NCBI GenBank assembly: GCA_009843815.1 | Contig: VYCS01000041.1 | Location: 1-51,811, forward strand | Origin: Cenarchaeum sp. SB0675_bin_21 | GTDB taxonomy: Archaea > Thermoproteota > Nitrososphaeria > Nitrososphaerales > Nitrosopumilaceae | Direction of reading: 5' to 3' | Length of the DNA stretch: 51,811 nucleotides | In this document: one piece after another, positions 18,060-41,062 of the stretch | Position numbering within the stretch: the first letter of the stretch is position 1 | How the letters are laid out: each line of letters opens with the position of its first letter | Translations under genes and position numbers: made by a program | The notes under the pieces: generated by a model | Seen by the model: the letters and a program-made list of their open reading frames with translations, nothing else | Database searches by the model: none | What the model was told of the DNA's origin: nothing

Positions 18060-18163
18060 CAATATAATGTACAACATTATGTTAATTTAAATGTGGAAGT
18101 TGTTCGGGTGTTTAGACGTGTGACATCTTGGGCTTTTATACTCATAGACTCTCATCCCATAGG

Positions 18164-18360
18164 TGAGTGATGATCTAAGTTGGACAATATCAGAAAAAAC
18201 ATCTACGCATAGCGTACAATGACAGAGTCGCAATAGTATTTTTGTGCGTTATGAATAATTTTTGTACAAAAGATCTTTGTATTCATGGTCAGACTTTGTT
18301 ATTAGAACTACTCAGATAATCTCAAAGTCGCCCATATTGTACAATTTAGATCATCACTCA
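18164..18360. repeat. 27-bp near-perfect inverted repeat pair enclosing 143 bases
   Basis: Positions 18164-18190 and 18334-18360 are inverted copies of each other, 25 of 27 bases matching. The core is TGAGTGATGATCTAA. Similarity may extend a few bases outward (CCATAGG against CCAGAGT). Between them lie a perfect 12-bp palindrome, TTTTGTACAAAA (18260-18271), and AAAGATCTTT (18269-18278). No transposase is inside. The pair sits just upstream of the PQQ-type dehydrogenase, in a gap (18078-18406) that is otherwise empty. Confidence 0.75.
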
Positions 18361-18406
18361 ACTCTGGAAGGGAAGCCTTATCTCATAAAAAGATAAACCA
18401 AATGTA

Positions 18407-19996
18407 TTGTATGCTGCGCTCATAGTTGTATGTACCGTATTATTTATGGTATATACTGCAGCGGCCGAGCCAGTAATATATGATGATGAGCTCTCACTAG
18501 AGACGTACGTTACGGGGTTCTGTTGTCGTCTCACCGGCATGGAGTTTATGCCCAATGATGACTTGTTGGTACTACAGCAGAATGGAGATGTCCGACTAGT
18601 CAAGGACGGACAGTTGATGGCGGATGCAGTACTAACTGTAGACACAATTCCGTTCCGGGAGATGGGGCTTTTGGGCATAACCCGGTCTGGAGAGTCTGTA
18701 TATCTATACTATACAGTTCCAGACGAGCATGGCGATCCCATCTACAACCGTATAGAGCGATACACATGGGATGGACAGTCTTTGATTGATCCTGTTGTGA
18801 TGATCGATATTCCAGTCAACCTGTACCATAACGGTGGAGCAATGGTTACCGGTCCTGACGGCCAAGTATATGCAGTAGTTGGAGATACGGGAAGATATGG
18901 ACTCTTACAAAACAAGGAACCGGGAAGTTATTATCCTTCAGATATGACTGACTATCTTGATACCAGTGTCATACTGCGGGTAGATCCACCTGGCGAATAC
19001 TATGCGGTGGGAATCAGAAACAGTTTTGGTCTTGCATTTGATCCTGTTACCGGTATGATGTGGGACACGGAGAATGGTCCTGACAACTTTGATGAGATAA
19101 ACATTGTACAGGAGGGTTTCAACAGTGGATGGGAGGTTGTGATGGGTCTGGCAACAAAAGATGACCTGTCGCACATGACAATGAGTGAGAGTTATCAGTA
19201 TGAGGATCCCAAGTTTACATGGTATCATACTGTGGCGCCAACGGGAATTGGTTTTGTAGACTTTGCTGAGACTGACAAGTACAACAACTCAATATTTGCA
19301 GGCGACTGCAATCATGGACGGCTCTACATCTTTACAATGAATCAGAACAGAGATGGGTTTGTGTTTTCATCTCCAGGTCTGCAAGATACAGTTGCGGATT
19401 CAGGGGATTCCCTAGAGGAGATAATACTAGCAGAAGGGTTAGGATGTATCACCAATATACGCACCGGGCCTGACGGCTACCTGTACATAGCAAGCTACTC
19501 GCACGATACAATATACAGAGTACTTCCCGCATCTGCGGCATCTGCCCAGCAGACCAACACAGAATCACCACAGGAACAACATACCCAAGAGGGTGGCGGG
19601 TGCCTCATAGCCACTGCAGCGTATAACACCGAGCTTGCATCACAAGTACAGACGCTACGCGAGATTCGGGACAATACAATACTTTCAACCGAGTCAGGAA
19701 CCGCATTCATGTCTTTGTTCAATACATTCTACTACTCTTTCTCTCCAGCAGTGGCAGACATTGAAAGGGAGAGTCCAACTTTGCGTGCCATAATACGTGG
19801 CATCATCACACCCATGATATACTCCCTTTCACCTCTATCTTTGATTGATGGGGATTCAGAGATTCAAGTTATATTCTTGGGTGCTGCCATAATCTTGTTC
19901 AATGTTGCAGTGTATATAGGATCTCCGATCATTATTACGTACAGGGCGCGAAGGTTTGTAATGCAAAGGACCCGATCATATTCAATTTTTACCTAA
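18407..19996 (+). CDS. secreted PQQ-dependent sugar dehydrogenase-like protein with CFI-box tail
   Basis: A signal peptide (residues about 3-18) precedes a six-bladed beta-propeller of the glucose/sorbosone dehydrogenase family, with repeats such as GMEFMPNDDLLVLQQNGDVRLVKDG, NGGAMVTGPDGQVYAVVGDTG, ENGPDNFDEINIVQEGFNSGW and LGCITNIRTGPDGYLYIASYS. Such enzymes oxidise sugars outside the membrane, using PQQ and passing electrons to an acceptor. The C-terminal 130 residues carry a thaumarchaeal CFI-box (GGCLIATAAYNTE, Cys 399) and a final membrane helix that anchors the protein. The start is TTG; the first ATG would cut the signal peptide. No PQQ-synthesis gene is in the window. Confidence 0.8.
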   Translation: MYAALIVVCTVLFMVYTAAAEPVIYDDELSLETYVTGFCCRLTGMEFMPNDDLLVLQQNGDVRLVKDGQLMADAVLTVDTIPFREMGLLGITRSGESVYLYYTVPDEHGDPIYNRIERYTWDGQSLIDPVVMIDIPVNLYHNGGAMVTGPDGQVYAVVGDTGRYGLLQNKEPGSYYPSDMTDYLDTSVILRVDPPGEYYAVGIRNSFGLAFDPVTGMMWDTENGPDNFDEINIVQEGFNSGWEVVMGLATKDDLSHMTMSESYQYEDPKFTWYHTVAPTGIGFVDFAETDKYNNSIFAGDCNHGRLYIFTMNQNRDGFVFSSPGLQDTVADSGDSLEEIILAEGLGCITNIRTGPDGYLYIASYSHDTIYRVLPASAASAQQTNTESPQEQHTQEGGGCLIATAAYNTELASQVQTLREIRDNTILSTESGTAFMSLFNTFYYSFSPAVADIERESPTLRAIIRGIITPMIYSLSPLSLIDGDSEIQVIFLGAAIILFNVAVYIGSPIIITYRARRFVMQRTRSYSIFT

Positions 19997-20118
19997 TTAT
20001 TATATGATATCAAGAGTCTCTTTTGGTGCAAGATCTTTAGACAGATACAACACTATATCGACATATAGAACAATATTTTGCCACGTAGTATATATTCAAC
20101 CGCTCCTAATCCAGTAAT

Positions 20119-20766
20119 GTGGCGCGCAGGCGAAGGCAGAAAATTCAGAGCAAGCGCAACCGCTCCAATCTAACCCACAAGAGTAGGATGCAGACCAATA
20201 CCAAAATTCATAGTGGTAGAGACTCAGGTACGTACATAACACAAGGCATGCGTTTTTTATATGATGATAAGTTGGAGCTGGCAATTGAATATTTTGAGAA
20301 AGCCATTATTGCAAACCCAGAAGACGCAAGAAGTTATAGTTGCATAGGTGCGGCACTAGAGCATTTGGGCCGGCCTGGTGAAGCCATCAACCATTTTAAA
20401 AGAGCAATAAAGTTAGACTCACAGAATGCTGACTTGCATGCTGAGATGGGAGCAGTCTTTTGGGATTTAGGCAAACATAGGGATGTAATAGACTGCTTTA
20501 ACAGGGCGGTGGAACTTAATCCGACAAATCTCTCCGTCCGCAGCAGTATGGGGATGGCGCTTTTCATGTCTGGTAGACACAAAGAGGCTATCGCCGCCTA
20601 TGACGATATCATACGTATGGACCCTCAAAACTCAGATGCATACTACGGTAAGGCCATAATACTTTCTCAGTTGGAAAGATACTCAGAAGCCTCGGAGTGT
20701 TTTGAAAAAATGATTAAGATTGATCCTAAAAACGTTGAAAAGCTCGGCCAGATGATAGCGAGTTAA
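20119..20766 (+). CDS. tetratricopeptide repeat (TPR) protein
   Basis: The first 40 residues are very basic (ARRRRQKIQSKRNRS), then about five 34-residue TPR units run from residue 41 to 205, for example AIEYFEKAIIANPEDARSY and AINHFKRAIKLDSQNADLH. TPR arrays form protein-binding scaffolds. No catalytic domain, signal or membrane segment is seen. The start is GTG at 20119; an ATG at 20188 would remove the basic tail. The downstream 20805-21023 ORF holds further TPR-like units in another frame, so this gene may once have been longer. Confidence 0.75.
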   Translation: MARRRRQKIQSKRNRSNLTHKSRMQTNTKIHSGRDSGTYITQGMRFLYDDKLELAIEYFEKAIIANPEDARSYSCIGAALEHLGRPGEAINHFKRAIKLDSQNADLHAEMGAVFWDLGKHRDVIDCFNRAVELNPTNLSVRSSMGMALFMSGRHKEAIAAYDDIIRMDPQNSDAYYGKAIILSQLERYSEASECFEKMIKIDPKNVEKLGQMIAS

Positions 20767-20804
20767 AGACAACATGATGTGGGCGCAAGCAAGACGCTGA
20801 AAGT

Positions 20805-21023
20805 ATGTTGCACGAGGTGTGTATACATGATGAGGCCATTATCTGCCATAACAGGTCCACATTGTATGATCCTCAAGACATGGAGGTGTACCGATGCAAG
20901 GGTTTGGTGCTCATGAAATTTGACATGATCTCTGAGGCCTTGGACTGTTTTGAGATGGCCGTCTGCCTAGACCCTCAGAACAGTACATATCGGTATGGCC
21001 AACACGCTGGACAGTCTAGATAG
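20805..21023 (+). pseudogene. remnant of a TPR gene
   Basis: The 72 codons hold two TPR-like units (DEAIICHNRSTLYDPQDME and SEALDCFEMAVCLDPQNS) but no proper array and a ragged C-terminus. The frame differs from the intact TPR gene 38 bases upstream, and an in-frame stop sits shortly before its ATG. It looks like the decayed end of a duplicated or longer TPR gene. It may still be translated. Confidence 0.55.
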
Positions 21024-21177
21024 ACATAGAGATTGTCATGACTAAGAGAAATATTTGAAATTCAAACTAGAATGTCAAAAAATAGTCCATAGCCCTGAAC
21101 TATTATGACTTTCATACACAAAGAATGACTAAATGTATATTCTACAGACACAAATTGGTCCAATACACTACAATAGC

Positions 21178-40894: not shown

Positions 40895-41062
40895 GTGTGT
40901 GACAGTATGATTTTGGGTTTTATATCATTGTGGCGTACATCTAGCCAGACTCTACAAATACAGGGTATCGCTCTTCCAAAGTCCAACTATCAATTGTACA
41001 ATTAAAAGTAGTTTAGATCATAATATAACTTAGGAGTACTCACCGCACAAGAACAATAAAAG

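Follow-up and report, generated by a model that had tools for sequence, protein, structure and literature searches.

Related mobile elements

Prokaryotic miniature inverted-repeat elements (MITEs) are short and geneless, carry terminal inverted repeats (TIRs), lie dispersed between genes, share their ends with larger elements and show the target duplications of their family (reviewed in PMC10969869); archaeal cases have been described in Haloquadratum (PMC3119063). The window analysed here is a whole stretch of 51,811 nucleotides from a sponge-symbiont archaeon of the genus Cenarchaeum, contig C20 of a 1.61-Mb genome in 48 contigs. It contains an element at 18147-18377 that, together with its relatives, resembles prokaryotic MITEs in all of these respects. 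It differs from them in that the larger elements sharing its ends encode a TnpB-like protein and no recognisable transposase.

Members of the IS6 family generate 8-bp repeats and have given rise to MITEs of 227 and 336 bp (PMC7986276). The Cenarchaeum family resembles IS6 in its 8-bp duplications and in ends that begin with GG tips and contain CAAA; in contrast, the TGT motif conserved at IS6 ends is not present, nor do these ends flank the genome's IS6-like genes. The 8-bp duplication expected of an IS6-family MITE is perfect in six members of the family, but not at the window copy.

The TnpB carriers described for prokaryotes are IS200/IS605 or IS607 elements. The larger relatives of the window element share a TnpB-like gene with the IS200/IS605, IS1341 and IS607 groups, which are without TIRs and target duplications (PMC3119063, PMC6188088); the Cenarchaeum elements have both, and so do not look like IS200/IS605-type derivatives. 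In eukaryotes, Fanzor1 and some Fanzor2 elements combine a TnpB homologue with TIRs and target duplications (PMC3627910, PMC10711439). As in the Cenarchaeum elements, the TnpB homologue is the sole protein of Fanzor1 elements, and in one IS4-type case the duplication is 8 bp (PMC3627910, PMC10711439). The hosts of Fanzor1 are eukaryotic or viral, however, and the likeness drawn here is one of element architecture.

Structure of the window element

An earlier note on this DNA had described a pair of 27-bp inverted repeats 143 bases apart. This pair is real: when 27-bp arms are required to be complementary at 25 or more positions and to lie no more than 250 bp apart, the window yields one pair and none of 10 randomised (first-order Markov) windows yields any. 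The 27-mer is the best-matching core of longer arms of 45 nt at 18146-18190 (plus strand) and 18334-18378 (minus strand), which are 80% complementary at the same spacing of 143 nt; at a threshold of 36 or more matches, 45-bp arms were found once in the window and not at all in five randomised windows. These arms are themselves portions of longer homologous ends of approximately 85 bp each, and with this homology the element approaches one long imperfect palindrome.

The element (18147-18377, no assigned strand) is 231 bp long with a G+C content of 36%. Its outer tips lie at about 18147 and 18377. The 143-bp interior (18191-18333) is AT-rich, and no credible gene lies in it; the 40 bp of it next to either arm extend the homology between the two ends.

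The terminal repeats of the element consist of a degenerate GGTTCCYCCYRCAAAGTYGRGTGATG continuing into GATCTAAATTGTACAAT. Against family end sequences, a set that included a consensus derived partly from this genome's own copies, position 18147 scores 20/26 and position 18377 scores 22/26. When only ends from other elements are used, 18377 is still the top site of the window with 20/26; the runner-up scores 17 and randomised windows reach at most 18. The termini of the window element thus coincide with the end position of the family.

The flanks on either side, TTATACTCATA (18136-18146) and TTATCTCATA (18378-18387, both plus strand), have CTCATA in common. A shared 6-mer or longer is seen in 0.8% of random flank pairs at the same spacing. 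The flanks may be an eroded target duplication of the window element, although the match is imperfect. The statement that no target duplication is evident was therefore partly right: what is visible is at best an eroded one. The accompanying statement that there is no transposase holds for the element itself.

The locus in Cenarchaeum genomes

The element lies between two divergent genes, a threonine synthase gene on the minus strand (ORF start at 18077 or 18062) and a gene of the glucose/sorbosone dehydrogenase (GSDH) family on the plus strand, from 18407. No credible gene was found between them, and the gap is gene-free as first described. The dehydrogenase carries a CFI-box-CTERM domain (window 19601-19819, residues 399-471, NCBIfam 73 bits). 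Relatives of its C-terminal part, at approximately 50% identity, occur in up to dozens of copies across genomes of the archaeal family; the whole protein has seven matches in this genome. None of the genome contigs searched yielded a named relative of the dehydrogenase.

Two congeners were available for comparison, Cenarchaeum sp. SB0662_bin_33 (G002) and a second genome (G001). The G002 locus can be aligned, at 81%, over threonine synthase and the bases just ahead of it, as far as window position 18103. Past this point the alignment ends, and G002 has neither the inverted repeat nor the dehydrogenase at this locus. A relative of the dehydrogenase in G001 is 70% identical; its neighbour on the upstream side is a different gene, and it is not preceded by such a repeat. 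Neither congener has the inverted repeat pair ahead of its threonine synthase gene. Since both congener loci are without the repeat, the pair is no conserved regulatory site of either gene. The TATA-like stretch TTTAAATTAAC ahead of threonine synthase is common to the window, G002 and G001 and lies outside the element; the putative core promoter of this gene, as predicted from sequence, does not depend on the element.

Absence from the congeners is not a simple presence/absence test, because the neighbouring genes differ there too. No clean empty site can be demonstrated between this genome and G002, as the flanks and the gap sequence have diverged. Synteny with G002 (stretch L146) is broken across window 18104-21170, where the dehydrogenase and a TPR gene are replaced by approximately 1.2 kb with a different gene; the miniature element stands at one edge of this block.

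Dispersed copies and target duplications

When the region and its core motif were used as queries, many sites in the genome showed similar sequence, above reversed-pattern controls. A sequence-only profile, R1, was built from 13 copies. On the minus strand it matches the left end of the window element at 18147-18229 with 39 bits (E 6e-10), and on the plus strand the right end at 18291-18378 with 48 bits (E 1.5e-12); both ends belonged to the training set. At E<=0.01 there are 23 matches in this genome, both window arms included, 5 in G002 and none in G001. Matches outside the training set, on contigs C44, C24 and C30, have E-values of about 1e-5 or better. Most R1-type copies in this genome keep one end only. 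A second, weaker copy of this one-ended kind is located in the window at 40983-41035 on the plus strand (18.7 bits, E 0.0016), ahead of another plus-strand ORF.

In G002 copies, the conserved block recurs in inverted orientation some hundreds of bases away, like the ends of a transposon. An end pattern built from these G002 ends has 33 matches in G002 and 14 in this genome; it has none in the remaining 198 of the 200 genomes of the archaeal family that were searched, and a reversed control pattern gave 0. The elements enclosed by paired ends measure 213 to 1617 bp. Perfect target duplications flank seven family elements (8 bp in six, 9 bp in one), and another matches at 7/8; at an element on contig C31 a one-base shift of one end is needed for the duplication to match, while four other paired-end elements have no target duplication at their flanks.

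Two chimeric deletion derivatives in G002 (L150, 654-1234; L149, 1502-2030) combine one R1-like end with either the 3' or the 5' end of a TnpB element, which suggests recombination between family members. A second inverted-repeat motif, AAAGTGTTTTGCTTTTTGA, is nested inside G002 elements (L222, at C21:3208-3420; also L150 and L148) and is possibly another small mobile element.

The 18147-18377 stretch is thus short, has no credible ORF, is bounded by TIRs and has multiple dispersed relatives, as is characteristic of a MITE. Because its ends match those of the family, sister elements have target duplications, the congeners lack it at this locus and the putative threonine synthase core promoter lies outside it, the miniature element suggested at the outset is supported. 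The earlier note had named the lack of any second copy, with conservation of the region in relatives, as grounds for favouring a local regulatory site; similar ends were instead found dispersed across the genome, and the region is not conserved. The stretch is very probably an old non-autonomous MITE of a family spread in two Cenarchaeum genomes, presumably mobilised in trans, which inserted between the threonine synthase and dehydrogenase genes and then decayed.

No earlier description of this MITE family was found in the open-licence literature. The genus type genome, C. symbiosum A, has been reported to be without IS-like transposons (PMC6563490). Relatives of the window element show that small transposons have moved in Cenarchaeum recently enough to keep perfect target duplications.

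Larger relatives with a TnpB-like gene

Taken alone, the window element is one worn miniature element, ordinary in kind; its TnpB-carrying relatives raise the interest. At least six elements of approximately 1.6 kb in this genome share ends with it (L213-L219). They are located at C45:6440-8036, C8:17634-19241, C17:14657-16272, C36:9071-10681, C31:8871-10487 and C30:18291-19904. All have terminal inverted repeats, and several have perfect 8-bp duplications. Each contains one sizeable gene of approximately 520 codons, which is open in five elements and split over two frames in the C8 copy; the five open genes are 85-90% identical to the first.

The predicted protein matches the Pfam TNB domain at E 1e-5, slightly below the gathering score, and NCBIfam Cas12f2 at E 2e-8, far below the cut-off. 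It has the motif order GVDIN, EDLT, CxxC, DRDVNA. Sequence comparison found no relative in the PDB. These features support a TnpB/Cas12f-like product, at scores below the database cut-offs. No tnpA was seen inside the approximately 1.6-kb elements, so that the ends of the window element are shared with elements that encode a TnpB-like protein and no known transposase.

Within the open-licence literature, TnpB-like genes bounded by TIRs and 8-bp duplications are described for eukaryotic Fanzor and not for prokaryotes. The window element may belong to an archaeal lineage of transposons that have TIRs and 8-bp duplications, encode nothing but a TnpB/Cas12f-like protein of the RNA-guided nuclease type, are mobilised in trans and are surrounded by miniature derivatives. 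Such a lineage would be a prokaryotic counterpart of Fanzor1; the proposal is tentative, with chances a little short of even. With these relatives it can be tested whether archaeal DDE-type transposons, too, carry TnpB nucleases and keep them.

Transposase and proposed mechanism

Fixed-length 8-bp duplications beside terminal inverted repeats are the usual product of a DDE transposase. The family duplications therefore point to mobilisation in trans by an enzyme of this type. The terminal repeats (GGTTCCYCCYRCAAAGTYGRGTGATG into GATCTAAATTGTACAAT) would be the recognition and cleavage sites for the trans-acting transposase, which would insert the element by a staggered cut and so produce the 8-bp (once 9-bp) target duplication. 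The element would have arrived in this way in the gap between threonine synthase and dehydrogenase and decayed thereafter.

No transposase bearing these ends was found in the sequence examined. Three IS6-like DDE transposase genes with an N-terminal SWIM zinc finger (L163, L166 and L168, on contigs C26, C13 and C26 of this genome) were rejected as the mobiliser, as the ends are not shared; the two longest have 423 and 478 codons, and the element ends were not found at them. A divergent relative of these genes lies approximately 0.35 kb inside an end on G002 contig C129, which stops after it. Two other candidates were rejected. A helix-turn-helix transposase-like gene beside a G002 copy (L152) is outside the element. 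An IS1595-like gene in G001 has GGTTCCTCCTAC upstream, but the similarity stops after 12 bases.

Alternative explanations

A MITE could have been exapted after insertion, so that its origin is mobile and its retained ends now tune neighbouring promoters. The mobile origin and the bias of retained single ends towards gene starts fit this explanation. However, the same bias may be survivorship, since insertions persist best in intergenic gaps. Exaptation is unlikely as an account of the window element, with perhaps one chance in several. A secondary regulatory role of the weaker one-ended copies, many of which face gene starts, is possible. Regulation by R1 copies would be at most secondary, because some copies are flanked by convergent ORFs or sit at an ORF's 3' end and because R1 in the congener covers little past the transposon end itself.

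The same observations speak against the arms being paired operators, that is, activator or repressor sites each serving the gene it faces, in a regulon with an approximately 90-bp upstream module at a dozen or so promoters. Each arm does face outward, toward its own gene; 11 of 17 R1 copies are in divergent gaps (on rough ORF calls), many have a gene start ahead of them at no more than 200 bp, and one stands ahead of a superoxide dismutase gene. In contrast, the conserved ends belong to elements with target duplications, and the TATA-like stretch of threonine synthase shared with both congeners is outside the element. A promoter or operator module, based on the outward arms and TATA-like stretches, was dropped as the main explanation once the ends proved to be transposon ends. 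Paired operators are now very improbable, and the paired regulatory site offered as the original alternative gives way to the miniature element, for which a later regulatory role is possible.

That 18147-18377 is an inverted repeat formed by chance, or a gene for a structured RNA, has a negligible probability: the AT-rich composition would suit either and nothing further does, while the pair is absent from randomised windows and has many copies across the genome, an Rfam search gave no match at the element, and the R1 copies share no meaningful consensus RNA fold.
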